The notes below the pieces were generated by a model. The model worked only from the letters and a program-made list of their open reading frames with translations, was not told where the DNA came from and searched no databases. Of a stretch of 24,262 bases of DNA, positions 1-20,308 are shown piece after piece; positions within the stretch are counted from its first letter, which is position 1; every line of letters begins with the position of its first letter. A program made the translations under genes and the position numbers. Source of the DNA: a virus; the IMG/VR virus record IMGVR_UViG_3300042549_008695, positions 1 through 24,262 of that record. The stretch is one strand, 5' to 3'.

Positions 1-34
1 TAAGTTAGCTAGGAGTTAGCGAAAAAGTTTTTAT

Positions 35-111
<77 letters not shown>

Positions 112-137
112 GACAACCGAGGGAAAGACGAGGGCAA

Positions 138-242
138 GAATTAGACGGGGCCGTCATTGTGTTGAAAACTTCGAAAGAAGTGGCTTCGTGAGGTGCAGTA
201 TCATTAGATACAACTCGAGACTACGAGTGCGGGGTCTAGTTC
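138..242 (+). ncRNA. Possible structured RNA between the two tRNA genes
   Basis: The 176 bases between the tRNAs contain no convincing reading frame but several potential helices. GAATTAGAC (138-146) can pair with GTCTAGTTC (234-242), nine pairs including one G-U. Inside this lie ACTTC-GAAA-GAAGT (168-181, a GNRA tetraloop), GTATC-ATTA-GATAC (198-211) and ACTCG-AGACTA-CGAGT (213-228). GACG/CGTC (144-147/152-155) is a competing pairing. The arrangement resembles a multi-branch junction, but it has no T-loop motif, CCA or anticodon arm, so it is not a tRNA. One 9-bp helix of this kind is expected by chance at this length, so only the cluster of hairpins is suggestive. It could simply be transcribed spacer. 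Confidence 0.3.
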
Positions 243-287
243 AATTAATTGAGTAGAATGTATAGTTTAGTATTAAATAGTTTTCAT

Positions 288-370
288 GTCCGCGTGGTGA
301 AATAGGTAGACACAAGAGACTTAAAATCTCTCGCGAAAGCGTCCCGGTTCGAGTCCGGGCGTGGACACCA
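288..370 (+). tRNA. tRNA-Leu (anticodon TAA), CCA encoded
   Basis: The acceptor stem GTCCGCG (288-294) pairs with CGTGGAC (360-366), with one G-U, followed by discriminator A and encoded CCA (368-370). The anticodon stem AGAGA/TCTCT encloses the loop CTTAAAA with anticodon TAA. A variable arm (CGCGAAAGCG region) and T arm CCCGG-TTCGAGT-CCGGG follow, as expected of a class II leucine tRNA. It reads TTA, the leucine codon favoured in AT-rich phages. It lies 16 nt upstream of the first protein gene, so it may be cut from a common transcript. Confidence 0.97.
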
Positions 371-386
371 GTTTAAAGGAATAAGC

Positions 387-575
387 ATGTCTATAGAAAT
401 TGCAATAGTTGTAGGTTATGTTGTTGGTTCTATTGTTACCGGTATCATGGCATATAAACGCGGCGTTATTCGCGGTTCAGGCGCAACAGTGGATCTGCTT
501 ATTTCTGCAAACTTTGTTAAGTGGCGTAAAGTAAACGGCGAGATTGAACTCTGCCCCCTAGATAGCAAAGACTAA
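387..575 (+). CDS. Small single-pass membrane protein
   Basis: This 62-residue protein is not recognised. Residues 4-24 form one hydrophobic, glycine-rich segment (IAIVVGYVVGSIVTGIMAY), followed by a basic patch (KRGVIRG). The protein is therefore probably anchored in the inner membrane, with the remainder in the cytoplasm by the positive-inside rule. The C-terminal half is polar with no known motif. The start ATG follows the purine-rich AAAGGAATAAGC, a plausible ribosome site. It lies between tRNA-Leu and the SpeD-family gene, 12 nt from the latter, and probably shares its transcript. The coding call rests on the ribosome site, spacing and tight packing with neighbours. The function is unknown. 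Confidence 0.65.
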   Translation: MSIEIAIVVGYVVGSIVTGIMAYKRGVIRGSGATVDLLISANFVKWRKVNGEIELCPLDSKD

Positions 576-587
576 GAGGACACATTA

Positions 588-965
588 TTGGCTCAGTTTC
601 ACAAACATCTTATTATTCGTGCAGAAATTAAAAAACCCGCAGTAGACCCAACATATGTATCAGAAATGTGGATGCCTAATCTAATTGATAGGATTGGTAT
701 GAAAACACTAATGGGTCCTTATGCAACATATTGTGACGTTCCCGGTAATCGAGGACTTACAGCAGTAACTATCATTGAGACCAGTCACATCGCTATGCAT
801 ATTTGGGACGAAGAAAGCCCTGCAATGATGCAACTAGATGTTTACACTTGTGGTCCTTTGGATCCTTACGATGTAGTAGCTGCTATCCAAGAATTCGAAC
901 CAGTTCTAGTAGAAATGAAGTACCTAGATCGAGAACAGAATCTAGTAGAAATTCCTATGCCATAA
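588..965 (+). CDS. speD: SpeD-family pyruvoyl-dependent decarboxylase (S-adenosylmethionine decarboxylase-like)
   Basis: This 125-residue protein has the length and core motifs of prokaryotic SpeD, a self-cleaving enzyme whose new N-terminal serine becomes the pyruvoyl cofactor. The classical product is decarboxylated SAM for spermidine synthesis. The candidate processing serine is S66 in IIETSHIAMHIWDE, H71 is the processing histidine, and C88 in DVYTCG is the catalytic cysteine. The spacing S-to-H (5) matches the family. The glutamate normally just before the serine is a threonine here (T65). The start is TTG at 588, behind AAGAGGA. SpeD is a known auxiliary gene of marine T4-like phages. 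Some SpeD homologues decarboxylate ornithine or arginine instead, so the family call is firm but the substrate is open. Confidence 0.88.
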   Translation: MAQFHKHLIIRAEIKKPAVDPTYVSEMWMPNLIDRIGMKTLMGPYATYCDVPGNRGLTAVTIIETSHIAMHIWDEESPAMMQLDVYTCGPLDPYDVVAAIQEFEPVLVEMKYLDREQNLVEIPMP

Positions 966-990
966 CAAATCAGCTACACTCTAACTAGCT

Positions 991-998
991 GATAAATA
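991..998 (+). promoter_or_regulatory. T4-type late promoter box GATAAATA
   Basis: GATAAATA differs from the T4 late consensus TATAAATA only at the first base. It ends 5 nt before the ATG of the radical SAM gene, so a transcript started from it would have almost no leader. It also overlaps the right arm of an 8-bp inverted repeat, ATCAGCTA/TAGCTGAT (969-976/986-993). Confidence 0.45.
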
Positions 999-1003
999 TT
1001 GGT

Positions 1004-2332
1004 ATGGATGAGATACACACAAAACATTACAAGCACTGGAACGAACTACCTATTAACAAGGATACTTCGTGTCAATTTAAATGGACATGGAGTACCCTGT
1101 TTTTAAACTTTGGTACTACCAGTAGCTGTCACCGTTGCAAGCATTGGCCTGTAACAGTTGATACTATTGAAGACTTCCACAATGTTCCAGGTAAACTGCA
1201 AGATCGAGAAAAGATGTTGCAGGGCCAATGGCCCGGTAACGGTTGCGAGTATTGTAAAGTTGTAGAAGATGTAGGCGGAACCAGCGAGCGTCAAGCCTAC
1301 ATCAAGGACCTAGCGATGCTGCCTCCAGAGATGCAGTACAATCCCAGCGCCACTGAAGTTACGCCCAGACTACTAGAAGTTTATTTTAGTAGTCTATGTA
1401 ATCAAGCCTGCACTTATTGCAGCGCAAAGTTCAGCAGTGTTATTCAAGCAGAAATTGTAAAGCATGGTGAGATCGTTAAGGACGATCTAGAAGTATATCA
1501 GTGGCCCAACAATCCTGATTATGACATTATGCGCGAAAAGTTTTGGAACTGGATGGATAAGCATGGTAAAGACCTGTACAAGTTTCAGATCCTAGGCGGT
1601 GAGCCGCTGTATCAACCTGAGTTTGAACGCTGCATCGAATGGTTTGATAAAAATCCTTGCCCTAATCTAGAATGGCACATCTTTAGTAACCTCAAACATA
1701 AAACAGAACGCTTAGAGCAGCAACTAGACAAAATTGAACGTCTTATTGCAGATAAAAAGCTAAAGAGCTTCCAAGTTGTTGCTAGTATGGATTGCTGGGG
1801 AGATGAAGCTGAATATGCACGCTACGGTATGGACCTAGAACAATGGGAGCGTAACTTCCTGCTGCTGCATAACAAGCGTTGGGTCAAGCTACAAGTACAT
1901 AGCACTATCACATCGCTAACTACTCCCACAATGTGGAAACTGTACGACAATATTATCAAGTGGGAAGATAATCAAATTATGCCTTGGGGCAAGCCCAAGC
2001 CAATCTTCTATAGTTGGAACACTATTCAAGATCCAAAGTGGATGAATCCTAGTGTGTTTGGTGATTACTGTGTACCTGAGATTGATCAGCTAATACGCAC
2101 TCTTGAAAGCAGAAATCAAACTTTTAACAGGGATATTTCTTATCTAGAAGGTATTCGTAAGCAGTTAGTAAATGCTAAACCAAACAAGTATGAAATGTAT
2201 CGTTTCCGATCACACTTAGATGAATTGGATAAACGCCGTAACTTAGATTGGAAAAGCATCTATCCGAGACTAGCTGAATATGTTAATTTACAGCTACACA
2301 ACTATACGTTTGAAAGTAAAAAGGGGCAGTAA
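1004..2332 (+). CDS. Radical SAM protein (twitch-type, phage family)
   Basis: This 442-residue protein has the radical SAM cluster motif CX3CX2C at C132, C136 and C139 (SLCNQACTYC), which holds the [4Fe-4S] cluster that cleaves SAM. The GGEPL motif at 198-202 is the usual SAM-binding GGE. Two further pairs, C42xxC45 and C81xxC84, lie before the core and could bind zinc or an auxiliary cluster. No SPASM-like cysteine cluster is seen at the C-terminus. Proteins of this type are frequent in marine T4-like phages, usually next to glycosyltransferase-like genes, as here. The substrate is unknown. The gene overlaps the next one at TAATG. No Shine-Dalgarno sequence is seen before the ATG. The FdxA ferredoxin at 4808 is a possible electron donor. 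Confidence 0.85.
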   Translation: MDEIHTKHYKHWNELPINKDTSCQFKWTWSTLFLNFGTTSSCHRCKHWPVTVDTIEDFHNVPGKLQDREKMLQGQWPGNGCEYCKVVEDVGGTSERQAYIKDLAMLPPEMQYNPSATEVTPRLLEVYFSSLCNQACTYCSAKFSSVIQAEIVKHGEIVKDDLEVYQWPNNPDYDIMREKFWNWMDKHGKDLYKFQILGGEPLYQPEFERCIEWFDKNPCPNLEWHIFSNLKHKTERLEQQLDKIERLIADKKLKSFQVVASMDCWGDEAEYARYGMDLEQWERNFLLLHNKRWVKLQVHSTITSLTTPTMWKLYDNIIKWEDNQIMPWGKPKPIFYSWNTIQDPKWMNPSVFGDYCVPEIDQLIRTLESRNQTFNRDISYLEGIRKQLVNAKPNKYEMYRFRSHLDELDKRRNLDWKSIYPRLAEYVNLQLHNYTFESKKGQ

Positions 2333-3453
2333 TGCCTCAAATATATGCTAATGGTTTAATAAAAGAAAATCCTTTTTTTGAACTATCTAATCAAAGTTTT
2401 GAAAAACTGCTGAAGCTATATACTAATAAAAACACAAAATATTCTAAATACATAGTAGTAAAACCTGTTTATAAGAATCTCAATTTAGAAACAATTGATT
2501 TTGACCCGGTTGCTTTTTTCAGCGATGCATTAATAAAAAAGTTAAAATTAGGAAAAATATCTTTAATTTTTGATTGTTCCATAGAAGGTTCGCATATCGT
2601 ATTTCCTTACTTTAAAAGATTTAGTAAAGGATTTTCAAATAATAACATACCACTTCAACGTTTTTATTATTTAACAGGCGATGCTGTTGAAAAAGACATG
2701 CATCTTAAAAACAATGTGTATCACATTAATGCGTGTGATAGTATGTTGAGCTGTCCCAACCCACGTTTAGATACAAAAGCAACCTTATATTTTACGTGCC
2801 TCAGTCGCAAACCTAGATACTGGCGTTCTAGATTAATCTATGAAATGTATAATACTGCGTATAAAGATAAAATGCTAGCGAGTCATCCGAAAATTGAATC
2901 TAAAAATGATTTTATGAATCATGACGGATTTGATGTTGACGGTAATATGGTTGAGTTTTTTATTAAACATTCTCCTATGCAAGTTTCGCAGAATGCTCCA
3001 CTTTCTAGCACAATGCCGGATAAAGATATAATATCAACTTTACCGGAAGTCTACAGTCGCGCAGTATTTGACGTATCATTAGAAACATATCAAGAAAGAG
3101 CACACGAATTTATTACAGAAAAAACTTTCAAACCTATGCTTAATATGATGCCGGTAATAATTTGGGGTACACCCGGTATTAATACATCGGGGCTGACCCG
3201 ATTAGGATTTAAGACATATGAGGATTGGTTTGATTTAACCTTCGATATTGAACCTAATACTGAAAAAAGACTTAAGCTTTTACTTGATGAGATACATCGT
3301 GTATGTAATATGCTAGATAGCATCGATGATATATCTAGTTGGCAGCGAAAGAATATGGGCGTAATAGAGCACAATAAAAATATTATACGCAACTTGTTAC
3401 CTACAAATGTATCCGAATTTACTCAATTTTATAAAGATATAGAAGCAGGTTGA
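2332..3453 (+). CDS. Glycosyltransferase-like phage protein, 'EKTFKP' family
   Basis: This 373-residue protein shares its C-terminal half with the protein at 12201-13460. The key block is ITEKTFKPMLNMMPVIIWG (261-279), then a conserved LGFKTYEDWFD (291-301). An upstream block, LSRKPRYWRSRLIYEMY (157-173), corresponds to SLNRTVRQHRLQFARELY in the paralogue. The pattern 'E-K-x-x-K-P, hydrophobic run, P-x-I-x-x-G' resembles the nucleotide-sugar binding part of fucosyltransferase-like GT-B enzymes, which suggests a sugar transferase. That is inference. No signal peptide or membrane segment is seen. It is translationally coupled to the radical SAM gene by a TAATG overlap. It is visibly more AT-rich than that gene, so it may have a separate history. 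Confidence 0.6.
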   Translation: MPQIYANGLIKENPFFELSNQSFEKLLKLYTNKNTKYSKYIVVKPVYKNLNLETIDFDPVAFFSDALIKKLKLGKISLIFDCSIEGSHIVFPYFKRFSKGFSNNNIPLQRFYYLTGDAVEKDMHLKNNVYHINACDSMLSCPNPRLDTKATLYFTCLSRKPRYWRSRLIYEMYNTAYKDKMLASHPKIESKNDFMNHDGFDVDGNMVEFFIKHSPMQVSQNAPLSSTMPDKDIISTLPEVYSRAVFDVSLETYQERAHEFITEKTFKPMLNMMPVIIWGTPGINTSGLTRLGFKTYEDWFDLTFDIEPNTEKRLKLLLDEIHRVCNMLDSIDDISSWQRKNMGVIEHNKNIIRNLLPTNVSEFTQFYKDIEAG

Positions 3454-3478
3454 CAAGATTGCAATATATTGCTATACT
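3450..3478 (+). promoter_or_regulatory. Sigma70-type early promoter for the ligase operon
   Basis: TTGACA (3450-3455) and TATACT (3473-3478) are separated by exactly 17 bp, matching the bacterial housekeeping consensus in 11 of 12 positions. The -35 box overlaps the end of the upstream gene. Transcription would start near 3485, giving a leader of about 25 nt with AAGG before the ligase ATG at 3510. It is a strong host-type promoter, as expected for phage early genes. Confidence 0.88.
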
Positions 3479-3509
3479 GTTGTATCATTAGTATTTTAAG
3501 GCAACTAAA

Positions 3510-4808
3510 ATGACCCCATGGCAAATTATTAAAGATTTGGAAACACACAATCTGCGTACTAACAAAGAGCAGATCATTGATGCTAATAGAGATAATGCAG
3601 AATTTTTAGAAGGTTGTAGACTTGCACTAGACTCTATGATCACATTTGGTCTCAAGAAAATTCCAGAAAAGACTGATGAGGATGGGCCTGGCCTAAGCTG
3701 GGACGCATTTACTCTAGCACTAACAGGCTTTGTTAGTCGCGGTGTCACCGGTAATACAGCTCGCGACATGATCGCAACAATGATGAACTCTGCTACGCAA
3801 GAGCAGTGGAATCATTGGTATCGACGTATCCTTATTAAGGATCTACGCTGCGGCGTAAGTGAAAAGACCATTAACAAAGTTGTTAAGGGTGCTATTCCTG
3901 TATTTGAATGTCAGCTCAGTCATGACAGTGCTAACCATGAAAGTAAAGTATGCGGCAAGAAACTGATCGAAGTGAAGTTGGATGGTGTGCGAGTTTTAAC
4001 CGTAGTCTATCCAGATGGGCGAGTGGACCAGTTCAGTCGCAATGGCAAGGAGTTGCTCAACTTTGGTCACATCAAAGAGCAGTTCGCCAAAGTAGCGAAC
4101 AAGTTAAGCTCTCCGACTGTTTTCGACGGGGAGATTATGAGCAGCAGTTTCCAGGATCTAATGAAGCAGGTTCACCGCAAGGAAAATGTAACAGCCGGTG
4201 ATGCAGTACTACACTTGTTTGATATTATTCCGCTTGACCAGTTTCAAGAAGGCAAGTTTGCAGTTAAGCAACGTGAGCGCACAGCATGGCTCAAGCAGTG
4301 GTACGAACAACACATGAACCTGTTGCCCAACGTAACTGTACTTGACCATGCAGTAGTTGACCTTGATTCTGATGAAGGACAGAAGTTGTTTTCTATGTAC
4401 AATAAGAGTGCAGTAGAGAACGGTTACGAAGGTATTATGATCAAGGACTTGAATGCTCCATACGAGTGCAAGCGTAGTGCTGCCTGGCTCAAACTCAAAC
4501 CCTTCATTGAAGTTTCGTTGGAAGTAATCAATGTTGAAGAAGGCACTGGAAGAAATGTTGGACGACTGGGTGCATTTGTATGTGCCGGCGTCGACGACGG
4601 AAAACGTATTAAAGTTAATGTTGGGTCTGGCTTCAGTGATTCGAATAGAGATAGCTTTTGGGCTAGCCACGTTGAAAATGATAATATTGTAGGACAAATT
4701 GTTGAAGTGAGGGCAGATGCGGTAACGCAGAACCAAGATGGAACTTATAGTTTGCGCTTCCCTCGCTTCTTACGTTTCCGTGGCTTTGAGGCCGGAGAGA
4801 AACTATAA
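3510..4808 (+). CDS. ATP-dependent DNA ligase (T4 gp30-like)
   Basis: This 432-residue enzyme seals nicks in duplex DNA and would join Okazaki fragments during phage replication. Motif I is KLDGVR with K156 as the nucleotide-accepting lysine. Motif III is TVFDGE (203-208), motif IV is YEGIMIK (306-312), and motif V is WLKLKP (326-331). An N-terminal DNA-binding region of about 150 residues precedes the adenylation domain, and an OB-fold region of about 100 residues follows. The size is slightly below the T4 enzyme (487 residues). The start ATG follows AAGGCAACTAAA. It is the first gene of an operon behind a strong sigma70-type promoter, consistent with early expression. It overlaps the ferredoxin gene at TAATG. 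Confidence 0.95.
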
Positions 4809-5137
4809 TGACATACGTTGTAACAGAATCATGTATTAAGTGCAAGTATACTGATTGTGTGACGGTTTGCCCAGTAGATTGCTTTTATGAAGGTGAAAAT
4901 TTTCTAGTCATTAACCCCGACGAATGTATTGATTGTGCGCTGTGTGAGCCTGAGTGTCCTGTTAATGCGATTTATTCTGATAACGACTTGCCACAGGAAC
5001 AGCGTTACATGATTGACTTAAATGCTGAACTTAGCAAAGAGTGGCAAACTAGTAATATTACAGCCAAACGTGATCCGCTGCCGGATGCAGAGCACTGGGC
5101 TACTGTTCAAGATAAAAAAGATTTTCTAGTAAGGTAG
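4808..5137 (+). CDS. fdxA: 7Fe ferredoxin, FdxA type ([3Fe-4S][4Fe-4S])
   Basis: This 109-residue protein is a full-length match in layout to proteobacterial FdxA and Azotobacter ferredoxin I. C9, C17 and C50 fit the [3Fe-4S] ligands. C21, C40, C43 and C46 fit the [4Fe-4S] ligands. The two additional cysteines C12 and C25 are also where ferredoxin I has them. The C-terminal tail includes the family's [11 protein letters not shown]. It carries single electrons in the cytoplasm. Phage ferredoxins are usually the plant type; this bacterial type is unusual and was probably captured from a proteobacterial host. Its start overlaps the ligase stop (TAATG), and the deformylase follows after 12 nt. 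Possible partners are the radical SAM protein or host oxidoreductases. Confidence 0.95.
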
Positions 5138-5149
5138 TTAAATAAAGTT

Positions 5150-5746
5150 ATGAGTAAACAATACGACCCATATAGCAAATATGCATCTAGCACTGATGTC
5201 AGTTTAGGCGAGTCCTTTCTCGAAGATTGGCGCTGTGAATTAGTTGACCCTAGAGATCCTGCATTACATCGAAGTGCTACAACTGACCCGTTTAAAGGCG
5301 GTATTGACTGGACTGAACGCGAAAAAGAAATGCTTGAGCTAATGCATGCCAATTTAGGTGTAGGACTTAGTGCTACACAAGTTGGTAGTAGTTATAACAT
5401 GTTTGTTATGGCACATAGTTTCTTAGGTGACATAGGTATTTACAAACCCTCCATTATTGAAACTGAAGGTGAAGTACAAATTGAAGAAGGTTGCTTAACT
5501 TGGCCGTTGCTTTACTTAAAGATTAAGAGACCAGCTAAGATCAAGGTACAGTTCACCAAAACAGATGGTGAGACTGTGGTTGAAACATGGATGGATGGTA
5601 TTGATGCAAGATGTTTCCTTCACGAGTATGATCACTTGCAAGGAATTAACTTTATAGACATTGTTGGCGAATTTAAACTACAGATGGCTAAACAAAAACG
5701 CGACAAGCGTTTTAAAAGATTGGAACGTTCTGTTAAGAGAGGATAA
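5150..5746 (+). CDS. def: Peptide deformylase
   Basis: This 198-residue enzyme removes the formyl group from the first methionine of new proteins. All three family motifs are present: GVGLSATQ (70-77), EEGCLTWP (112-119) with metal ligand C115, and FLHEYDHLQG (156-165) with metal ligands H158 and H162 and catalytic E159. The usual EGCLS is EGCLT. About 45 residues precede the usual start of the domain, an acidic extension with no motif. Deformylases are recurrent in marine phages, where they are thought to speed maturation of host or phage proteins during infection. The start is coupled to the ferredoxin gene, and the stop overlaps the next start (TAATG). Confidence 0.95.
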   Translation: MSKQYDPYSKYASSTDVSLGESFLEDWRCELVDPRDPALHRSATTDPFKGGIDWTEREKEMLELMHANLGVGLSATQVGSSYNMFVMAHSFLGDIGIYKPSIIETEGEVQIEEGCLTWPLLYLKIKRPAKIKVQFTKTDGETVVETWMDGIDARCFLHEYDHLQGINFIDIVGEFKLQMAKQKRDKRFKRLERSVKRG

Positions 5747-6603
5747 TGGACTATCCATTCTATGTCAACAACTTTGATCGTGTTCAAGACCATGCAAGAC
5801 AATATCCTTTAGTAAGAAAGATATTTGAGCATCCTGTTGCGTTTTGGTACGGCCAAAGAAACGGCAAACCCGTAAAGCATCTAGAAAAGAGCTTGGCAAG
5901 ATTGTTCCGTAGAACATTGCCTGCTCTTCCTGTGTTTGTGCTTTACAATCTTCCTAACCGAGACATGGGACATTACAGCAAAGGTGGCGCTAGCAGTTCT
6001 GCTAGCTATTTAGAGTTTATTGAAAGTTTTGCATTAGGTGTAGGCAAACTTTCGCCTATTGTTATCTTTGAACCCGATGCGCTGCCACATAGTACAGAAA
6101 TGGCTACAGTTGAAGCACAGTGGCGCTATAAACTAATGCAACAAGCATTAACAATACTAACTGAGCGTACTAACGCACTAGTGTATGTTGACATAGGTCA
6201 TAGCAATTGGCTCGAACCTGAAGAAGCTGGTAAACTACTTAACAGTGTATGTGCGCCGGGTGTGCGCGGCTTTAGTGTCAATGTCAGCAACTTTAGAACC
6301 ACAGAAGAGTCTGTAAGCTGGGCAGAGCGTGTAGGCGAATATACACAGTACAATCACTACGTAGTTGATACTAGTCGCAACGGCAACGGTCCATATGGCA
6401 ATGAATGGTGCAACCCACCTGGTCGTGCAATTGGTCAAAAACCTACAACAGATACTGGATACCCTCTGTGCGATGCTTATCTATGGATTAAGATTCCTGG
6501 CGAGAGTGACGGAAGAAAAAATAACGGACCTAGAGCAGGCCGCTTTTGGCCCGTTTATGCCGAGCAATTAGTTATTAATACCGCGAATATTTTAAATGAT
6601 TGA
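5746..6603 (+). CDS. Glycoside hydrolase family 6 enzyme (cellulase-like)
   Basis: This 285-residue protein is a compact GH6 catalytic domain, a family of inverting beta-1,4-glucanases (endoglucanases and cellobiohydrolases). The ordered motifs are VLYNLPNRD (65-73), IFEPDALP (107-114), VYVDIGHSNWL (146-156), VDTSRNGNGP (207-216) and IKIPGESDG (248-256). D73, D111, D149 and D208 fall where the family's key aspartates lie. The D73-D111 spacing of 38 equals that of Thermobifida Cel6A (D79-D117). There is no signal peptide, carbohydrate-binding module or linker, so export would depend on lysis or on the virion. It sits inside a tightly packed early operon, with TAATG and 8-nt overlaps on either side. 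The actual substrate is unknown; a host or biofilm glucan is possible. Confidence 0.92.
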   Translation: MDYPFYVNNFDRVQDHARQYPLVRKIFEHPVAFWYGQRNGKPVKHLEKSLARLFRRTLPALPVFVLYNLPNRDMGHYSKGGASSSASYLEFIESFALGVGKLSPIVIFEPDALPHSTEMATVEAQWRYKLMQQALTILTERTNALVYVDIGHSNWLEPEEAGKLLNSVCAPGVRGFSVNVSNFRTTEESVSWAERVGEYTQYNHYVVDTSRNGNGPYGNEWCNPPGRAIGQKPTTDTGYPLCDAYLWIKIPGESDGRKNNGPRAGRFWPVYAEQLVINTANILND

Positions 6604-7069
6604 ATATTATAAAAATGCTCTTAGTGAGCAAGAAATTATCTATTTAGAAAAGAATGTACATGAATTCTATAATCATGATACAGAAATTTTTCATAGCTTA
6701 CGTGCAGATCTAATTAAAATACCACTGTTTTTCAAATTTTTAATTTACGAAAAACTACAAGCATTCTCCGAAAAATATAAAGTAGAAGTTGGAGAAATTG
6801 AGTTTGCTAGATATAGACGATATTTACCCGGTGACTATATTAAACCACACAACGATAATTATAAAAATGGTAATAGAAAAGTAACTATTATTTTCGGAAT
6901 AAACGATCAATATAGCGGCGGCGAACTCTGTATTAACAACACAGAATTTAAAATTCTAAGAGGTGATATGTTGCTATTTTCTAGCGAAATTATGCACGAA
7001 GTTAAGACAGTTACAGACGGTGTAAGAGATATTATAGTAGTGTTAACTCACACTTTAGAAAATATTTAA
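6596..7069 (+). CDS. 2-oxoglutarate/Fe(II)-dependent oxygenase
   Basis: This 157-residue protein has the double-stranded beta-helix signature of the prolyl 4-hydroxylase-like superfamily. H85 and D87 form the HxD iron motif in IKPHNDNYK, H134 in EIMHEVK is the distal iron ligand, and R144 in GVRDII is placed to bind 2-oxoglutarate. SGGEL (107-111) and GDMLLF (123-128) are family-typical. The 65-residue N-terminus is short and without other domains. Such small oxygenases are abundant in marine T4-like phages; their targets (protein side chains or nucleobases) are mostly unknown. It overlaps the GH6 gene by 8 nt and is the last gene of the early operon. Its stop codon overlaps the stop of the opposing gene. 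Confidence 0.88.
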   Translation: MIEYYKNALSEQEIIYLEKNVHEFYNHDTEIFHSLRADLIKIPLFFKFLIYEKLQAFSEKYKVEVGEIEFARYRRYLPGDYIKPHNDNYKNGNRKVTIIFGINDQYSGGELCINNTEFKILRGDMLLFSSEIMHEVKTVTDGVRDIIVVLTHTLENI

Positions 7070-7410
7070 GAAACACCGCTTGGATCAGTGTTGTCTTGCA
7101 CTTGATCACTAACAGCAACTTCATCACCTGGATTGTATAGTTCTGCTTCTAAGTAATGCTTTGCGCTACTAATGTAATCACCTGCACGAACAATCTTAGC
7201 AGTCCACCATTGAGGAAGATCACCGTTTGGAACTTCCTTTAGCATCTTGTGTAGCTCAACGGCATACTTGCCAATCTTATAAAGTTCTTGACGAATCATA
7301 TCTGGTTCGTCGTCAACATGACCGACCACAGTCTTTACAACTTCATCGCCTGTTTCTGGTTCTTCTTTTAGAATTCCAGCTAGCTTTTGTAATCTATATA
7401 AGTCGTTCAT
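7066..7410 (-). CDS. Late protein with N-terminal LAGI module, unknown function
   Basis: This 114-residue acidic protein is not recognised as a known enzyme. It begins MNDLYRLQKLAGILKEE, which closely resembles two segments of the upstream-encoded protein (ILRKLAGLPLEE and ELRKLAGLR at its end). This looks like a portable module. The LKE-E step at its end loosely fits the L-x-E cleavage rule of T4-type prohead proteases, so it may be a capsid-targeting peptide. That is inference. The middle is predicted helical, around YKIGKYAVELHKMLKE. It is coupled to the preceding gene by a TAATG overlap. Its stop overlaps that of the convergent oxygenase gene, leaving no room for a terminator. Confidence 0.7.
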   Translation of the reverse strand: MNDLYRLQKLAGILKEEPETGDEVVKTVVGHVDDEPDMIRQELYKIGKYAVELHKMLKEVPNGDLPQWWTAKIVRAGDYISSAKHYLEAELYNPGDEVAVSDQVQDNTDPSGVS

Positions 7411-9296
7411 TATCTTAAACCTGCTAGTTTGCGTAGTTCTAACATAGCTGCATCTAGTGCATTGCCTGCTGTTCCCTCAACTTCTTCGTTGGAAATCTTA
7501 CGCATTGTGTTTTTGCGATTATAATACTTACGTGCCGAATCTGCATCGTCATGGCTATTGTCCCAATGCTTACCAATTTCTCCCGATGCTTTCTTTACAT
7601 ACGAGTCTTTAGTTTTATCGGAAATTTCAGCAATCTGATCGTCTTCGCGAACGTCAGCATCACTGTTGCCATAGTCTGCTTCTAATTGATCAGCAACAAT
7701 GTCTAGGATCTGTTCAAAGTCATCGTCTGGGTGTAGGTGATGATCGATTGATACGTCATCGTACATTTGCTGAATAATTTTAGCAGCAGTAGCTTCTGCA
7801 GGTGTCTTCGGGTTAGTCATAACATCATAGATGTCTAGTTCACCTGAGCCAGCTTTTGCTAGTACTAGATCTGAATCGCTGCTGAAACCTTCTTCAACCT
7901 CTTCATTTTTTAATTTACCTTCAAGATCCTTTAACTTTTCGCGGGCAGCTTTGCGGCGAAGTGCTGTGTAACCTTTATCCATAGAGTCACGCTTAACAGT
8001 TTGAATCTGTCTTTTCAGGGCAGCATTCTCATCTTCGTCTTCAGCTTCGACTCTGAGCGCACCTACGCCTCTGTATCCGTGTGCAATTTCTTGCTCGAAG
8101 TCATCTATGCTTGGAATCCAATCTTCGTCATCTTCGTCCTCATCTTCTTCGTCTTCATCCTTAGCTTCTTCTACACCGTAGTCAGTGCGAATGCTGTTTA
8201 AGTCAACATTTTCCTTTTTGAACTCATCTTCATCAGCTGAATCATCATAAGCAGGGCTATTGTCGCCAGCAGTTAGGTCCATGTTTTTAACTGCATTAAC
8301 TGTTAAATCTAAAACAAACTGCTTTAGGTCTTTTGGTAGACCTGAAATACCGATGTCTTTTTGATTCATAAGCTGTACAATATCGCTTACCTTTTGATCA
8401 ACTGCTAGACTGTTGTTGTCTTTAGGATCAAGTCTTTCGCTGATCTCTGCTAACAATGCTTCCGGAGAGCGTAATAGTGCTTGAATAAACTGCTCTTGCT
8501 TAGCCGCCGGATCGCTAACATCTACACCCTTAGGGAAACGATTGGCAATACTCATCTTAGCACTGGATGCACTGGGTGGTAAAAACTTTGCTGCCTTAGC
8601 ATCAGCACTGCTAAATTCAACTGGTGCTGCTTCTTCTAAAGGAAGTCCTGCTAATTTTCTTAGAATGTTAATTTGTTCGCTCATATCTGCTCTCGCTATT
8701 TTGTTATAAATTAAGTTAAACACCTTGTCGTTGTACGTGCCAAACTGTTTTGTATAAATTTGTTTAGCACTTTCTGCATCCGGAGCAGCTTTTAATGCGT
8801 CTCTAAATGCGCTGGCGCTAGCAACTTCGTCACCAATTTTAATAGTAGGCGCTAGTGTAATGTATCCACGCTCACTCATCGGCTTTGGACTTGCCTTTAG
8901 TGTATTTATCTTTTGGAAGTATTTAGGCTTTGCTTCGCCCCGCACAGTCATATCTAAACCTGTGTTTGGATCCACATTATTGAAGGGGAACCGATCTAAG
9001 TCTTTTTCGCCTACTGCAAAAACAATTATAGTTTCAGCAGGATTAAAGTACTTAGCGTAGTCCTCTTGATGATATGTACGAGTAACAGCTAGCACTCGAT
9101 CTGCCGAAATACCGTGTGCAGCAGCAATCTGTTGCTTTTCCTTAAAGTTAAAAGGACTTTTAGGAAGCTCTACTTTATCGCTGGTACCAATATATACATC
9201 AGCATCAGGAAACTGTGATTGAAGCTGTTTAAATACTTCAGCGTGATGGCTGAGCATTGGCTGGAATCTGCCTGGATATATAACTACTTTGTTCAT
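7410..9296 (-). CDS. Nucleotidyltransferase (NMNAT/cytidylyltransferase-like) fused to long acidic LAGL-module region
   Basis: This is a 628-residue protein from the ATG at 9296. Residues 1-200 are a HIGH-type nucleotidyltransferase fold: YPGRFQPMLSHH (7-18) is the GxFxPxxxxH motif, and SASAFRDAL (160-168) is the ISSTxxR-like motif. This is the superfamily of NMN adenylyltransferases and cytidylyltransferases; the substrate is unknown. The rest is unlike any enzyme: an MSEQINILRKLAGLPLEEA segment (205-223), a low-complexity acidic run (about 377-392) and a terminal ELRKLAGLR. Several V/L-E-E followed by A or G steps resemble T4 prohead-protease sites. An internal ATG at 8684 after GCGAGAG could start a separate product. 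A GTG at 9311 extends the frame but lies inside a promoter box. Confidence 0.82.
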   Translation of the reverse strand: MNKVVIYPGRFQPMLSHHAEVFKQLQSQFPDADVYIGTSDKVELPKSPFNFKEKQQIAAAHGISADRVLAVTRTYHQEDYAKYFNPAETIIVFAVGEKDLDRFPFNNVDPNTGLDMTVRGEAKPKYFQKINTLKASPKPMSERGYITLAPTIKIGDEVASASAFRDALKAAPDAESAKQIYTKQFGTYNDKVFNLIYNKIARADMSEQINILRKLAGLPLEEAAPVEFSSADAKAAKFLPPSASSAKMSIANRFPKGVDVSDPAAKQEQFIQALLRSPEALLAEISERLDPKDNNSLAVDQKVSDIVQLMNQKDIGISGLPKDLKQFVLDLTVNAVKNMDLTAGDNSPAYDDSADEDEFKKENVDLNSIRTDYGVEEAKDEDEEDEDEDDEDWIPSIDDFEQEIAHGYRGVGALRVEAEDEDENAALKRQIQTVKRDSMDKGYTALRRKAAREKLKDLEGKLKNEEVEEGFSSDSDLVLAKAGSGELDIYDVMTNPKTPAEATAAKIIQQMYDDVSIDHHLHPDDDFEQILDIVADQLEADYGNSDADVREDDQIAEISDKTKDSYVKKASGEIGKHWDNSHDDADSARKYYNRKNTMRKISNEEVEGTAGNALDAAMLELRKLAGLR

Positions 9297-9301
9297 ACTA
9301 G

Positions 9302-9309
9302 TATTTATC
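9302..9309 (-). promoter_or_regulatory. T4-type late promoter box GATAAATA
   Basis: Read on the minus strand the box is GATAAATA. It is followed after exactly 5 nt (CTAGT) by the ATG at 9296. The same geometry occurs at 991-1006. No Shine-Dalgarno sequence lies between the box and the start, which suggests a leaderless late transcript for the nucleotidyltransferase fusion gene. Confidence 0.5.
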
Positions 9310-9337
9310 ACTGAGGCATATAAATGTTGCGCCTAAA

Positions 9338-9880
9338 TTAATCTAAAGTAGTACACCAAACACTTAATTCGCCAACCTCAATTCCTTGAGGCTGGTCTAA
9401 GCACCATTTAACCATAGCTGCTAGTTGTTCGGGCGTTAACATTTTCACATCTACGTGAGAAACCATATCTGTTCTCACATATCCCGGGTTTATATTAATT
9501 ACACGGCATTTTCTGTTTATATCACGAATAGCATTAATTGCACTAGAACGCAACAGTTTTTTATCTGCGGTATATTTTCGCTGATTTGGTCCGTTATAGA
9601 TCGTTCGACTGTTTATGTTAACAATCGTTTTAGTAGAGTCGCTGTTCCAGTGCTTTAGTAACATGTCAAAGATGGTTGTTTGAGCTGTGTTGTTGTATGC
9701 ATTGTTAACAAACACATCACAATCTATTTCTATTGTATTTTTAATAATTGATTTAACATCTTCCGGTTTTGAAATATCATATCCATTACTACGGCTGAAT
9801 CCTACAACTTCGTCGGTGTAGTATAATCCGGCAATTGCTTTACCAATTCCTTTAGTGTGTCCTGTGATTGCTATTTTCAT
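9338..9880 (-). CDS. Short-chain dehydrogenase/reductase (SDR)
   Basis: This 180-residue protein is a short classical SDR. TGHTKGIG (6-13) is the glycine-rich NAD(P)-binding loop, NNAY (59-62) replaces the usual NNAG, S91 and Y103xxxK107 form the catalytic set, and PGYVRTD (132-138) is the family's post-catalytic segment. The usual length is about 250 residues, so it lacks part of the substrate-binding region. It would reduce or oxidise a small alcohol or carbonyl compound with NAD(P)H in the cytoplasm; the substrate is unknown. Compact SDRs like this occur in marine T4-like phages. It is coupled to the upstream hydroxylase-like gene by an ATGA overlap, so the two may act on the same compound. 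Confidence 0.87.
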   Translation of the reverse strand: MKIAITGHTKGIGKAIAGLYYTDEVVGFSRSNGYDISKPEDVKSIIKNTIEIDCDVFVNNAYNNTAQTTIFDMLLKHWNSDSTKTIVNINSRTIYNGPNQRKYTADKKLLRSSAINAIRDINRKCRVININPGYVRTDMVSHVDVKMLTPEQLAAMVKWCLDQPQGIEVGELSVWCTTLD

Positions 9881-10440
9881 TTAGCGCCTCGTATTCTTTC
9901 TTTGATATATTTTACACCAACCATATGGTACCTATCGTGGTCGCCGTAGTTTACTGCTGTGTGTAACTTAGTGGTGTTCACTTCGTAGCTATTACCTGCT
10001 TTTAGATTAGCATGATATACTGTTACAGTTGTATCGTCCCCGGGCATAACATCGTAGAATGTTAGAAATGCTCTGCTGTTAGTAACAATTGGTATGTGTA
10101 GTCTAATGTTTTCTCTAAAAGGTAACCCGTCTGGATGAATAGAATATGTCGCCCGCGGAATTACCTTCAATAGCCTCCAGCGATAAAAATCTGGATAGCG
10201 ACGAATGCACTCTGCAATATATGTGCCTTCTAGATATTCGTTGATTTTATTAAAGTAGCGTTCTGGGTACTTAAGTAAGTGACGCTTACCTGTACTATTG
10301 ATCCAGTTGTTCTCACCGGCTAGACTAGTAAGACTAATCTGAGGATGTTCTTCAAGCTTGAAATGCTCGATTAATTGATATATTTCTTTAGCCAACAGCT
10401 CGTGGTCTATATCTGTGTGTATGAGTTTTGTAAAGTTCAT
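9877..10440 (-). CDS. Aspartyl/asparaginyl beta-hydroxylase-like 2OG oxygenase
   Basis: This is a 187-residue protein from the ATG at 10440; an upstream in-frame TTG at 10452 would add four residues. The motif pattern fits the Asp/Asn beta-hydroxylase branch of 2OG-Fe(II) oxygenases. HPD (102-104) gives the HxD iron ligands, followed by RLHIPIV. A YEVNTTKLHTAVN segment supplies H160, and DRYHMV supplies R170 for 2-oxoglutarate. The order and spacing fit that family better than prolyl hydroxylases. The N-terminal 90 residues show no motif. The protein substrate is unknown. It shares an ATGA overlap with the SDR gene and lies 58 nt after the gene at 10499. Confidence 0.75.
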   Translation of the reverse strand: MNFTKLIHTDIDHELLAKEIYQLIEHFKLEEHPQISLTSLAGENNWINSTGKRHLLKYPERYFNKINEYLEGTYIAECIRRYPDFYRWRLLKVIPRATYSIHPDGLPFRENIRLHIPIVTNSRAFLTFYDVMPGDDTTVTVYHANLKAGNSYEVNTTKLHTAVNYGDHDRYHMVGVKYIKERIRGAK

Positions 10441-10498
10441 GTATGCTACCAAAAATATTTAATACTAGTGGTGTAAATAAATTTCGTTTTTTGGTAAC

Positions 10499-11044
10499 TT
10501 ATTCAACTCTCCATGATGTTGTGTTCAATTTAATATTAGTTGGCCAATCACCCTCGGTAAATGACTTGTCGTGGAACCGTAGTTCATTCGTTGGCATGAT
10601 GCACAGTCTGCCATTGTCTAGTTCTATAAACATAAACTCTTTAGACTGCGATGGATGCATACTGTAACCATCGTTCATGGGAATAGCAGTAAACAGATAT
10701 CGACCAAACTCTCCACTGCTGCGAATCTCTGCTCGCTGAGTGTTTAGATAATCATAACTGACAACTGAGAACTGATCACCGTAGCAATCCCATATCTGTG
10801 TATCTTCAAGCACCCATTCTGGTTCTGGGTCTGCAGAAAATGCCAGAGCATGTGGCGGAACACTACGCCAGACAGCACCACATTCCAACATTACATGGCA
10901 ACCCCATGAGTGTCCAGGTTTTGAATGTAATGCAAACCAAACACACGGTTCAAAGGTGTACGGTTCTATATCTTTACGAATGAATGACGAATCTACCCAA
11001 CAGTAGATATGATGAGGAATATTTCCTGATCCTGTGTATAACAT
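10499..11044 (-). CDS. Conserved-looking phage protein of unknown function
   Basis: This 181-residue protein is not recognised. It is rich in aromatic residues (many W, Y, F, H), has four cysteines in the first 60 residues, and has no signal peptide or membrane segment. It starts at ATG 11044 behind AAGGG, a usable ribosome site. It sits between the DUF5872-like protein gene and the hydroxylase/SDR pair on the minus strand and is probably expressed with them late in infection. The sequence looks like a compact beta-rich globular domain, but no catalytic motif stands out, so no function is assigned. Confidence 0.72.
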   Translation of the reverse strand: MLYTGSGNIPHHIYCWVDSSFIRKDIEPYTFEPCVWFALHSKPGHSWGCHVMLECGAVWRSVPPHALAFSADPEPEWVLEDTQIWDCYGDQFSVVSYDYLNTQRAEIRSSGEFGRYLFTAIPMNDGYSMHPSQSKEFMFIELDNGRLCIMPTNELRFHDKSFTEGDWPTNIKLNTTSWRVE

Positions 11045-11068
11045 ATTAACCCTTAATAAAAAATAAAA

Positions 11069-11929
11069 TTACCACTTGCGACAGCTCCAATAACGTGCCT
11101 TTGTTCTTGGACCAGGATTATCACAGTTGTGTCTTGCCCGGAAACTTCTACGTCTTGCAGGGTTTGACTTTTTAATTCTCATATTAGGGTCACCAAAGTT
11201 AACTTTGACTACATTGCCTTTGGGATTTTTAACATACACTTTAAACTTCTTAACATCGCCCTGCATAGGTTTACCTAGCGGAACATCACGACCCTGATAC
11301 TCAGCTTCTGTTAATGCATTAAATAACTCGTCGTCAGCATGTAATACAATACCGTCAGCAGCAATAGACTCTACCCAAGTGGACAACATTTCAGACTCTG
11401 ATAACTCAATGTCAAAGTAGTCACCTACCGCAGGCGAATCAATCCTCTCCCAATCCATATTCTCAATAAGACCGGCTTTGTGAATTTCTCGCCCAATGGT
11501 TACTGCTTCTGAATACGACTTGCTACCATAGCGTAATATGCTTTTAGTAAATGGCACGCCTTCTTTTATGTGGCGTAACGCTGTAATGAAAGTGTTGACA
11601 CTTTCAGTTCTTGATCTTTTTAGTGTTAATGAACGCTTGCGTTTCATCTGAGGTGTTGCTAAGTCTGATAGTACTTCATTATATCCTCTTAGCATACTCA
11701 TAAAAGCATCCATGCTTTTATTGTTGAGTATACGTTCAAGTTGATCAGGACTACCATCGATCATATCGGCGAAGTCTGAGAGGCGTTGCTTAAGTCTATT
11801 TTTAAGAGTGTTTAAGGAATATACTCCGACACCATGTACATATACTTCTATGTTAGCAGGATCGAAATCGCCTGTATCCTTAATGGACGCATGTCTTTTT
11901 TCACCGGAGCCTAATTCTGATATCTTCAT
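11069..11929 (-). CDS. Late phage protein with C-terminal Arg/Cys-rich module (DUF5872-like)
   Basis: This 286-residue protein is of unknown function. The C-terminus is distinctive: VYVKNPKGNVVKVNFGDP, then a basic stretch, and finally SFRARHNCD with YWSC in the last 25 residues (262-286). I believe this matches a family seen in phages and giant viruses (Pfam DUF5872, from memory and not checked). The conserved His and Cys residues could bind metal. The N-terminus MKISELGSGEKRH is short and polar. The middle has HIKEG and LTEAE steps that loosely fit T4-type prohead protease sites. ATG 11929 follows AAGGAATATCACAA, with a late box further upstream. It is likely a virion or head-core protein, by inference. 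Confidence 0.75.
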   Translation of the reverse strand: MKISELGSGEKRHASIKDTGDFDPANIEVYVHGVGVYSLNTLKNRLKQRLSDFADMIDGSPDQLERILNNKSMDAFMSMLRGYNEVLSDLATPQMKRKRSLTLKRSRTESVNTFITALRHIKEGVPFTKSILRYGSKSYSEAVTIGREIHKAGLIENMDWERIDSPAVGDYFDIELSESEMLSTWVESIAADGIVLHADDELFNALTEAEYQGRDVPLGKPMQGDVKKFKVYVKNPKGNVVKVNFGDPNMRIKKSNPARRRSFRARHNCDNPGPRTKARYWSCRKW

Positions 11930-11958
11930 TTGTGATATTCCTTAAACTAATATGCAAG

Positions 11959-11966
11959 TATTTATC
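11959..11966 (-). promoter_or_regulatory. T4-type late promoter box GATAAATA
   Basis: On the minus strand GATAAATA lies 29 nt before the ATG at 11929, leaving room for a leader with AAGGA. It is one base from the T4 late consensus. It overlaps the region just after the stop of the small basic protein gene. Confidence 0.6.
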
Positions 11967-11971
11967 AAAAA

Positions 11972-12136
11972 TTACTTGCCTTGTCCTCGGTAAGCCTTAT
12001 AGGTTGCACGCTTACGCTTGTTCATTGTGGAAAATTTAATTGAACTGTGAGTTGAACCAATTGTGGTTTTACCCTTTGCTTGACTACTAAACGAAACTTT
12101 TGATCCTTTATTAGAACCACCACTTGATTTTGCCAT
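11972..12136 (-). CDS. Small basic protein (54 residues)
   Basis: This short gene encodes a 54-residue protein starting MAKSSGGSNKGSKVSF and ending KAYRGQGK. It is rich in Ser, Lys, Gly and Arg and strongly basic, with no hydrophobic core, cysteine or membrane segment. The coding call is well supported for its size. The ATG at 12136 follows AAGGAGTAACACA, a near-ideal ribosome site. A perfect late promoter TATAAATA lies 34 nt upstream, and the frame fills the gap between two larger genes. It is likely a late, abundant protein that binds DNA, RNA or an acidic partner, perhaps in the head. The function is inference from composition only. Confidence 0.82.
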   Translation of the reverse strand: MAKSSGGSNKGSKVSFSSQAKGKTTIGSTHSSIKFSTMNKRKRATYKAYRGQGK

Positions 12137-12170
12137 TGTGTTACTCCTTGTGTGTTATATAATAACGCAT

Positions 12171-12178
12171 TATTTATA
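12171..12178 (-). promoter_or_regulatory. T4-type late promoter TATAAATA (perfect consensus)
   Basis: On the minus strand this is an exact TATAAATA, 34 nt upstream of the small basic protein gene, with AAGGAG between them. It falls between that gene and the end of the 12201-13460 gene. Confidence 0.85.
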
Positions 12179-12200
12179 AAAACACACTATTATCAGTAAC

Positions 12201-13460
12201 TTATGATTTAAACATCGAATCTACTTTGTTAATAAAACCGTTAAAATAGTTTTCGTTGTCTTTTAGGCTTTTGTACAAATTAAAATTATGTTGCAATATA
12301 TCAGACATTTCGTACATCATATCGGCTAGTGTCTTATGGCTATATCCTGATAGGGTTTGATATAGTTTAAAAAGAGCTTTAAAGCGTTCATTTGGGTCTA
12401 GTATGTCATCGTAACTCTCATCCCACCAGCCATGAAAAGTTTTAAATCCCATGCTACGCAAATGTTTTAGAATGCCTGGTTGTCCCATAACAATAAATGG
12501 GTGCAGCATACTAATTGGTTTAAATGTTTTTTCGCTAATATCTAATTCATATTCTAACGGTTTAGTAGCAAATTTATAATCGCTGTACCAAAAGAATGTT
12601 TCTGTTACAAAGCTGATATAACCTTCTTGATAAAATCTTCTACTTGATGGCAAATCTAGAGTGACAGGATTGATATCGCTTATAGTCCTGATATCATAAT
12701 ACCACGGTAGTGTTTGTATCATTGACTCTGGTACGGGCTTAAACACAAACGAATCATTCTCAATCTCATAATCATCAAACAATGGAAATGTATAGATATT
12801 TTCTGCTAGTAATTGATTGACATACAATTCTCTGGCAAATTGTAATCTATGCTGCCTAACTGTTCGATTCAATGATATTAATTTCTTAGGACGTCTATAC
12901 CTGCTTTTAATTAGTTTTAGATTTTCCCACCATTCTTGTGATTGTGCTGCTTCACTCCAAAACATTGAACCATTAAAACTAAAAATTTCATAAGGAACAT
13001 CGGTGTATGGTTTTAGATTTGCAGTTCCGAGTAATATGTTTTTATGATCTATACCATATATTTCAGAGGTGTTGCAAATCATGTCATGAGTCATATCATC
13101 GAACCCTTTCATATGATAAGTGATATCATACCCTTCGGAACTATGGTCTATATATAATTTACATAGACCTTTATCAATGTCTTTTAATATTTTTGTAGAG
13201 ATATCAAACGAATCTACACAAACATTTTCTTTAACTGATGCAACAACAGGGTCAAAAAATATAGGGTAGATATAGCAATCCGTTGCGTCCCTATCAACAG
13301 ATGGTTTTAGTTTTTGACTCTTGTAGAAGTGATCCGGGATAAACTGCTGTTCATTCCAGTGCTTGATCCACGATAATGGTTTTTTATCTTTGATACGCTG
13401 AATGTAGTCTACGGTGAATCCGTTGGCTTCTGAGATAGGATTTTTAAAAACTTTAAACAT
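12201..13460 (-). CDS. Glycosyltransferase-like phage protein, 'EKTFKP' family (paralogue)
   Basis: This 419-residue protein is a distant paralogue of the one at 2332-3453. Shared blocks are SLNRTVRQHRLQFARELY (196-213), ISEKTFKPISMLHPFIVMG (308-326) and MGFKTFHGWWDESYDD (337-352). The block order and spacing are the same, while the N-terminal halves barely align. The EKTFKP region resembles the donor-binding part of GT-B fucosyltransferase-like enzymes, so sugar transfer is a reasonable guess; no proof is visible. The N-terminal 150 residues have no known motif. The ATG at 13460 has no strong ribosome site; AGTAAATA shortly upstream is a weak late-box candidate. A terminator at 13535-13563 isolates it from the upstream operon. 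Confidence 0.65.
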   Translation of the reverse strand: MFKVFKNPISEANGFTVDYIQRIKDKKPLSWIKHWNEQQFIPDHFYKSQKLKPSVDRDATDCYIYPIFFDPVVASVKENVCVDSFDISTKILKDIDKGLCKLYIDHSSEGYDITYHMKGFDDMTHDMICNTSEIYGIDHKNILLGTANLKPYTDVPYEIFSFNGSMFWSEAAQSQEWWENLKLIKSRYRRPKKLISLNRTVRQHRLQFARELYVNQLLAENIYTFPLFDDYEIENDSFVFKPVPESMIQTLPWYYDIRTISDINPVTLDLPSSRRFYQEGYISFVTETFFWYSDYKFATKPLEYELDISEKTFKPISMLHPFIVMGQPGILKHLRSMGFKTFHGWWDESYDDILDPNERFKALFKLYQTLSGYSHKTLADMMYEMSDILQHNFNLYKSLKDNENYFNGFINKVDSMFKS

Positions 13461-16495: not shown

Positions 16496-16515
16496 TATTT
16501 ATAAACATATTTATC
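16496..16515 (-). promoter_or_regulatory. Tandem T4-type late promoter boxes
   Basis: On the minus strand there are two boxes: a perfect TATAAATA (16496-16503), 18 nt before the start at 16477, and GATAAATA (16508-16515) 12 bp further upstream. They drive the virion-protein operon leftward. They lie back to back with the rightward sigma70-type promoter at 16525. Confidence 0.82.
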
Positions 16516-16559: not shown

Positions 16560-16829
16560 ATGAATTACGAACTTAGAGTTGTTGTATTTTCCGAAAATGT
16601 GCTACAGATTAGGAAAGTGTATCTAGATGATCACAGCAATCCAGTACGGATTGATCCTGAGAGCATTGATCTTTCTGCGGAATCGCTGGAAGAATTAGTA
16701 GCCACAGTATTACATGCTAGTGCAAGTTTGACTAAACCTGCACTTGATGTTAATATGTTTGTTAAACATGATGTTACAGATGCTGCTCGCATTGCAGCAG
16801 CTATTTTGAGAGGTGACAGTGTACGATAA
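16560..16829 (+). CDS. Small early protein, unknown function
   Basis: This is an 89-residue protein from the ATG at 16560; an upstream in-frame GTG at 16533 lies inside the promoter and is not credible. It has no recognised motif, signal or membrane segment. The sequence suggests a small alpha/beta domain: an N-terminal strand YELRVVVF, then an acidic helix ESLEELVATVLHAS and a C-terminal helix DAARIAAAIL. There is no Shine-Dalgarno sequence, and the predicted transcription start coincides with the ATG. It is the first gene of the early operon and overlaps the UV endonuclease gene by 11 nt. It could be a host-takeover protein, but nothing in the sequence proves that. Confidence 0.75.
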   Translation: MNYELRVVVFSENVLQIRKVYLDDHSNPVRIDPESIDLSAESLEELVATVLHASASLTKPALDVNMFVKHDVTDAARIAAAILRGDSVR

Positions 16830-18338: not shown

Positions 18339-18346
18339 TATAAATA
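18339..18346 (+). promoter_or_regulatory. T4-type late promoter TATAAATA for the sugar operon
   Basis: This is an exact TATAAATA directly after the stop of the preceding gene. It ends 34 nt before the ATG of the RfbH-like gene, with AGGAAAAG as ribosome site between. It places the whole downstream sugar operon under late control. Confidence 0.83.
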
Positions 18347-19703: not shown

Positions 19704-20308
19704 ACCAATTAGAACAACGAATCATTGATATTAGCTATAATGAAAAGATAGGACATCTTAGTTCTACTCTTAATGCTGTTAATATTATTGACGAAATTTA
19801 TGCAACAAAACAACCTGACGAACCTTTTATTCTAAGCTCGGGTCATGCGGCTCTTGCAATGTATGTAGTTCAAGAAAAGTATGAAGGTCGTGATGCAGTA
19901 GAACTTTTTCACAAACACGGAGTACACCCACATCGTTGCTTAGAAGATGGTATATATTGTTCAACCGGCAGTCTTGGTATGGGACTTACTGTGGCAACAG
20001 GCTACGCTCTAGCTAATAGAGATCGTAAGGTATATTGTTTGATTAGTGACGGTGAGTGTGGCGAAGGATCTATTTGGGAAGCACTACGTTTTATATACGA
20101 AGCAAAGTTAGATAACTTAGAAGTATACGTTAATGTAAACGGAATGATTGCTTACGACATGATTGATAGAGATTATATCAACAATAGGTTACGGGCGTTC
20201 CTGCCACGTATCAACATTCGTAACACAGAGCCACCAAAGTGGCCTTTTGCAGAAGGTGTACTAACACATTATTATGTTTTAAAACCAGAGGATTTGGACA
20301 AGCTATGA
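19700..20308 (+). CDS. Transketolase-like, N-terminal (thiamine pyrophosphate) half
   Basis: This 202-residue protein is the PP domain of a split transketolase. GHLSS (18-22) and SSGHA (46-50) carry the conserved histidines, TGSLGMGL (89-96) is the cofactor loop, and SDGECGEGS (116-124) with a downstream asparagine near 145-147 is the thiamine-diphosphate metal motif. It works with the next gene product as an alpha/beta pair. A full transketolase has about 660 residues, so the third, C-terminal domain is absent. In this operon the pair may transfer a two-carbon unit to a sugar rather than run the pentose phosphate pathway; that is inference. The start is GTG at 19700, overlapping the previous stop. 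Confidence 0.9.
   Translation: MNQLEQRIIDISYNEKIGHLSSTLNAVNIIDEIYATKQPDEPFILSSGHAALAMYVVQEKYEGRDAVELFHKHGVHPHRCLEDGIYCSTGSLGMGLTVATGYALANRDRKVYCLISDGECGEGSIWEALRFIYEAKLDNLEVYVNVNGMIAYDMIDRDYINNRLRAFLPRINIRNTEPPKWPFAEGVLTHYYVLKPEDLDKL

Follow-up and report, generated by a model that had tools for sequence, protein, structure and literature searches.

A widespread phage-specific clade of glycoside hydrolase family 6 proteins without export signals in large environmental myoviruses

The stretch of DNA analysed here (the window) is an IMG/VR virus record of 24,262 nucleotides (IMGVR_UViG_3300042549_008695) that encodes, at positions 5746..6603 of the plus strand, a glycoside hydrolase family 6 (GH6) protein of 285 amino acids. 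This protein belongs to a widespread, phage-specific and export-free clade, a variant of a known enzyme family. As far as the searched collections show, the export-free lineage is confined to phages, where it is carried by at least 85 environmental contigs that represent two kinds of large myoviruses. If the enzyme is active, a cellulose matrix could be loosened at phage lysis, with progeny and carbon both set free; alternatively, phage GH6 would point to an intracellular glycan that is new to science.

The GH6 open reading frame (ORF) starts with ATG, is intact over its 285 codons, and matches Pfam PF01341 (E=7.8e-53, 180.7 bits against a cut-off of 27). It has no PHROG match, and the PHROGs library is itself without a GH6 match. 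The nearest solved structures are 1up0/1uoz (2e-57), 6fao, and 1tml (4e-47). An AlphaFold2 model, for which the input alignment consisted of 54 sequences (the window and related loci), reached a mean pLDDT of 91.1 and a pTM of 0.92. Foldseek aligned this model with 1up0 at a TM score of 0.90, which leads to the GH6 endoglucanases, and VIA-align gave Z scores of 35.9 to 1up0 (rmsd 2.1 Å over 279 residues) and 34.1 to Thermobifida fusca Cel6A. The best match in the BFVD viral structure library reached a TM score of only 0.45, so that library yielded no GH6-like match to the model. Profile, fold and catalytic set are thus in agreement, and the protein belongs to GH6, as a sequence-only reading of the window had proposed. 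Its 285 residues compare with 286-294 for 1tml and 1up0 and with about 360-440 for cellobiohydrolases, and the Z scores of the model are higher to endoglucanases than to cellobiohydrolases. By short domain length and Z scores, loop geometry aside, the modelled protein is of the open-cleft endoglucanase type.

Six active-site residues of T. fusca Cel6A (Y73, D79, D117, D156, K259 and D265) correspond in the alignment to Y67, D73, D111, D149, K249 and D255 of the window protein, and all six are invariant in the 64 distinct viral and the 80 bacterial sequences (64/64 and 80/80). The four aspartates, which the sequence-only reading had described as intact, are indeed all present; on the plus strand their codons lie at 5962..5964 (Asp73), 6076..6078 (Asp111, the catalytic acid), 6190..6192 (Asp149) and 6508..6510 (Asp255, the proposed base). 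Neither the acid nor the base, whose loss had been named as grounds for doubt, is missing from any of the 64 viral sequences. Among residues of the substrate site (T. fusca numbering) Y73, W41, W162, K259 and E263 are retained, as is W231 in the clade that includes the window (clade A, below). Endo-β-1,4-glucanase activity of the phage proteins is very probable.

Progressively wider queries of IMG/VR recovered 21, then 105, and then 157 stretches that encode GH6. The phage type is found on at least 85 contigs at 43-100% identity, a count made up of 80 contigs kept from the 105-stretch scan together with L195, L202, L203, L240 and L241 from the 157-stretch scan. These proteins are minimal, with 272-318 amino acids and 0-11 residues ahead of a conserved MDYPF-like start. 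Other contigs classed as viral (L168-L173 and L214) encode a secreted-type GH6 with signal-peptide-like N-termini, and these contigs may be of bacterial or prophage origin. A search of 50,697 deposited phage records brought up a relative, at 34%, in Streptomyces phage Gilgamesh and one unverified faecal scaffold only. Across 84,980 genomes of bacteria and archaea, the highest identities among the matches listed were about 45% or less, and the matches listed were mostly from Actinomycetota, with some from Myxococcota and candidate phyla. The earlier impression that GH6 is rare in phages therefore stands for sequenced isolates but not for environmental contigs, where the gene is common (at least 85 contigs); viral GH6 entries are also listed in two viromics surveys (PMC8725595 and PMC9948696). 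Relative to the sequence-only reading, the phenomenon is broader in extent but less strange.

The phylogeny that had been suggested as a check on the enzyme's affinities places the viral sequences in one group apart from the bacterial ones. In a maximum-likelihood tree, which is unrooted and in which long branches make fine placement unsafe, 64 distinct viral GH6 lie on one side of a branch with an SH-aLRT of 100 and 80 bacterial GH6 on the other. The viral sequences are split into clade A (n=54, with the window) and clade B (n=10), and the GH6 of Gilgamesh and of the faecal scaffold group among bacteria, outside the phage clade. Nei-Gojobori dN/dS values for clade A pairs with measurable dS range from 0.03 to 0.15, with 0.28 in a nearly identical pair, and these low values indicate that the function of GH6 is being kept.

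The window is a fragment without a capsid or tail marker, so that its carrier lineage is judged from relatives. On one 340 kb contig (L010) the gp23 capsid protein matches that of PA5oct-type Pseudomonas jumbo phages at 70% identity, and on another (L118) the tail sheath is 49% identical to that of the same phages. For the deformylase encoded next to GH6, the Sinorhizobium jumbo phage Phosso is one of the two best isolate matches by coverage, and Phosso also carries a related capsid protein. The capsid protein of a clade B contig shows 52-59% identity to Microcystis phage Mel-JY01, Flavobacterium phage immuto and an uncultured phage. Judged by these marker genes, the clade A carriers are relatives of PA5oct/GAP32-type jumbo myoviruses and the clade B carriers are far-T4-like myoviruses. 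The description of the window as T4-like fits the gp23 capsid of its relatives, but by the same relatives the lineage is nearer to the PA5oct/GAP32 jumbo phages. The nearest isolates point to the phage lineage only, and not to the host. Papers searched for the IMG sample numbers, as a lead to the habitat, gave no match. A cyanophage origin was considered and rejected, as no psbA/psbD-type gene occurs in 25 contigs, a set that includes many fragments, in a search for which the control genome was positive.

The different capsid matches of clades A and B place GH6 in two capsid lineages. The gene is absent from 23 contigs with related capsid genes, most of which are fragments and one of which extends to 374 kb, in a search that does find the GH6 of the window; the view that GH6 is core to the lineage was rejected on these grounds. 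Overall, GH6 is an accessory gene, forming one clade in two capsid lineages and lacking in a contig of 374 kb whose capsid protein is similar.

Upstream of the GH6 start codon the reading frame is open for only 3 codons before an in-frame stop, which fixes the start, and the N-terminus is polar rather than hydrophobic. The absence of a secretion signal noted by the sequence-only reading is upheld, and it extends to the clade: no signal peptide was detected in the window GH6 or across 81 viral loci, where N-terminal extensions are short (11 residues or fewer), while N-terminal extensions are present in the 80 bacterial homologues. A second difference lies in the cysteines. Cys80 and Cys125 (T. 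fusca numbering), which we take to form a disulfide in T. fusca Cel6A, occur together in 79/80 bacterial sequences, as against 0/64 viral ones, and the position of the first is occupied in the window by Met74 (alignment; codon 5965..5967, plus strand). Cys267 is found in 62% of the bacterial and in none of the viral sequences. The window GH6 thus has neither of the traits of secreted bacterial GH6 cellulases, signal peptide and Cys80-Cys125 pair. Together the missing signal peptide and the lost pair point to folding in a reducing compartment, and the phage proteins almost certainly fold in the cytoplasm. All clade A sequences (54/54) keep Cys222 and have a new Cys242, whereas clade B has neither; since this co-occurrence may reflect a single event on the tree, a new disulfide is not claimed.

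Within the window GH6 is the fourth gene of a run on the plus strand, which consists of an ATP-dependent DNA ligase (3510..4808; PF01068 1.4e-19, phrog_114 1.7e-93), a ferredoxin-like protein that, here in a phage, carries a DUF3470 tail (4808..5137; PF11953, PF00037, phrog_8732), a peptide deformylase (5150..5746; PF01327 1.3e-26), GH6, and a 2OG-Fe(II) oxygenase (6596..7069; PF13640 9.9e-12). The start of GH6 overlaps the stop of the deformylase gene as TAATG, and its end overlaps the oxygenase gene by 8 nt. The deformylase is a conserved upstream partner, located 1-2 genes upstream of GH6 on the same strand in 56/65 informative clade A loci, and the junction between the two genes is often overlapping or no longer than 8 nt. 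From this arrangement, the deformylase appears to be translationally coupled to GH6. No paper was found in a literature search that combined GH6, peptide deformylase and viruses.

In clade B the block ahead of GH6 is another one, containing APS-kinase-like, ThyX, NagB-type, PIG-L-type and RimK-type genes, and gp32-like and recombinase-like genes follow GH6 (the recombinase read by eye); a baseplate-like ORF, also read by eye, lies some 7 kb from GH6. Among the genes of this block upstream of GH6 are one of the glucosamine-6-phosphate isomerase type and one for a PIG-L-type deacetylase (L162 5157-5828; L160 3922-4428). A RimK-like ATP-grasp family (cluster 63) occurs near GH6 in both clades (L126, L130, L136 and L144 in clade A; L156, L158 and L160 in clade B). 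The phage-clade proteins are bare catalytic domains, with a deformylase partner in clade A, and show neither a tail-gene neighbourhood nor an anchoring or trimerisation domain. In the window, the earlier description of a minimal 285-residue domain encoded away from tail genes is likewise accurate.

Several further features of these loci were observed. The peptide LRKLAGL is repeated within proteins encoded adjacent to GH6 and at their C-terminus (65 ORFs in one cluster; 7066-7410 and 7410-9311 (-) in the window), and it is also C-terminal in a protein beside the capsid gene that is scaffold-like by position (L165 2595-3707 (-), read by eye). The peptide may serve in head targeting or in processing; its role as a head-targeting tag on GH6 was rejected, for it is absent from all GH6. 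Elsewhere in the window, a surface-sugar-like cluster (18381-24054, plus strand) encodes a DegT-type aminotransferase, an FkbM-type methyltransferase and an NAD-dependent epimerase, and within it a transketolase is split over two genes (19700-20308 and 20239-20784, plus strand). The window also encodes an S-adenosylmethionine decarboxylase (588-965, plus strand), a UvdE-type UV endonuclease with a strong match to phrog_8420 (16813-17859, plus strand), and two proteins of one cluster without Pfam or PHROG match (2332-3453, plus strand; 12201-13460, minus strand) that recur in 21 related loci.

A candidate sigma-70-like promoter (TTGACA-17-TATACT, with TG before the second hexamer) is located at 3450..3478 on the plus strand and extends into the intergenic space ahead of the ligase gene. 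It is the best such site in positions 1-12200 of the window (11/12 with TG), yet a weak candidate, as the number of sigma-70-like sites equals the shuffled expectation. The exact T4-type late octamer TATAAATA has three copies in the whole window, all in gaps between genes (12171-12178 (-), 16496-16503 (-) and 18339-18346 (+)), and none in the GH6 run. Across clade A, 61/128 matches to the octamer are intergenic, as against 5.9% for intergenic DNA. Early expression of the window GH6, suggested by the sigma-70-like site and by the fact that no exact copy of the T4-type late promoter lies close to the gene, is unproven.

With regard to function, the chances are about even that GH6 is freed at lysis to open a cellulose-like matrix. 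Here, a large myovirus lineage would long have retained a predicted competent inverting GH6 endo-β-1,4-glucanase, which would be translated and folded in the host cytoplasm and would accumulate there until phage lysis of the cell released it. The freed enzyme would then cut the cellulose-like β-1,4-glucan of the host's putative matrix, and progeny could leave the debris and reach new cells. In keeping with release at lysis, GH6 is encoded away from tail genes, has no anchoring domain, and is without the LRKLAGL-type peptide of its neighbours. What the data favour is folding in the cytoplasm; they do not discriminate between release and attachment to the virion. Precedent for such a role is provided by the cellulases gp094 and gp095 of Erwinia phage S6, which help that phage use host cellulose (PMC9544554).

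It is rather unlikely that GH6 is instead a component of the virion, bound to the tail or baseplate and cutting a cellulose layer at entry in the manner of a depolymerase. Folding in the cytoplasm without a signal peptide is usual for virion proteins too, and the missing export signal and the lost cysteine pair would therefore also fit this role. The nearest GH6 of a cultured phage, that of Gilgamesh gene 72, has an extra N-terminal part and is encoded near a minor tail protein, and as it too is without the pair, cysteine loss does not by itself tell whether the phage-clade protein is a soluble enzyme or part of the virion. The exact octamer TATAAATA is present in the GH6 run of 11/54 clade A loci; in the control, however, an anagram, TTAAATAA, outscores it with 13 loci, and the window's own GH6 run has no late octamer. 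All members of the phage clade are bare catalytic domains without an anchoring or trimerisation part, and the immediate partner of GH6 is a deformylase gene rather than a tail gene, which further argues against a place in the virion.

Action within the infected cell, on a β-1,4-linked glycan or glycoconjugate, is also unlikely. The targets considered were cellulose still being made at the synthase, a lipid-linked precursor of surface sugars, and a sugar on phage or host molecules. The lack of an export signal, the lost cysteine pair, and the setting of the gene among metabolic and replication genes (with NagB-type, PIG-L-type and RimK-type genes nearby in clade B) are all consistent with such a site of action, as are the sugar-nucleotide enzymes encoded by the window and the glycosyltransferase-like genes upstream in many related loci. 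The conserved substrate-site residues nevertheless suggest ordinary binding of cello-oligosaccharides, and we know of no β-1,4-glucan in the bacterial cytoplasm. It is correspondingly doubtful that phages have reshaped a family whose other known members are secreted cellulases, giving rise to a long-lived subfamily that stays in the cytoplasm and works within the infected cell.

That the protein is inactive as a hydrolase and only binds glycan is very improbable. Clade B has His in place of W231 and Phe in place of Cys232 in 10/10 sequences, and the viral and bacterial sets show swaps at a few conserved positions; against loss of activity stand the catalytic set, invariant in 64 viral sequences, the W231 kept by clade A including the window, and purifying selection. 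Finally, it is scarcely credible that what was taken for phage sequence in these contigs is bacterial DNA or a gene captured recently from a host, for although GH6 is abundant in Actinobacteria and the viral-classed contigs L168-L173 and L214 do carry the bacterial secreted type, a host-acquired or misbinned gene is rejected for the window's clade by the separate clade of phage-type GH6, with all bacterial matches listed at 45% identity or less, and by the gp23 capsid and tail-sheath genes on linked contigs.

The phage proteins can be compared with known systems. The two viromics surveys (PMC8725595 and PMC9948696) report, as here, GH6 on viral scaffolds and give these as auxiliary genes; unlike the present account, their available portions make no mention of an export-free clade, the loss of the cysteine pair, or a jumbo-phage context. 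The cellulases of Erwinia phage S6 are multidomain GH48 and GH5 proteins of a podovirus (Schitoviridae) and in this differ from the window GH6 (PMC9544554). Mycobacterium tuberculosis Cel6 (1up0/1uoz) shares the GH6 fold, the catalytic residues and about 40% identity with the window protein, but it is bacterial, and the signal peptide and cysteine pair seen in the bacterial set are both missing from the phage proteins. T. fusca Cel6A (1tml, 2bod) is, like the window GH6, a minimal domain (286 residues) of open-cleft endoglucanase length, whereas in the phage proteins Cys80 and Cys125 are replaced, Cys267 is lost, and there is no signal peptide. Gene 72 of Gilgamesh (MN234216) is, as in the window, a GH6 domain in a phage genome; unlike the window GH6, to which it is 34% identical, it encodes 444 amino acids with an extra N-terminal part and lies near a minor tail protein gene, yet it shares with the phage clade the loss of the Cys80-Cys125 pair.
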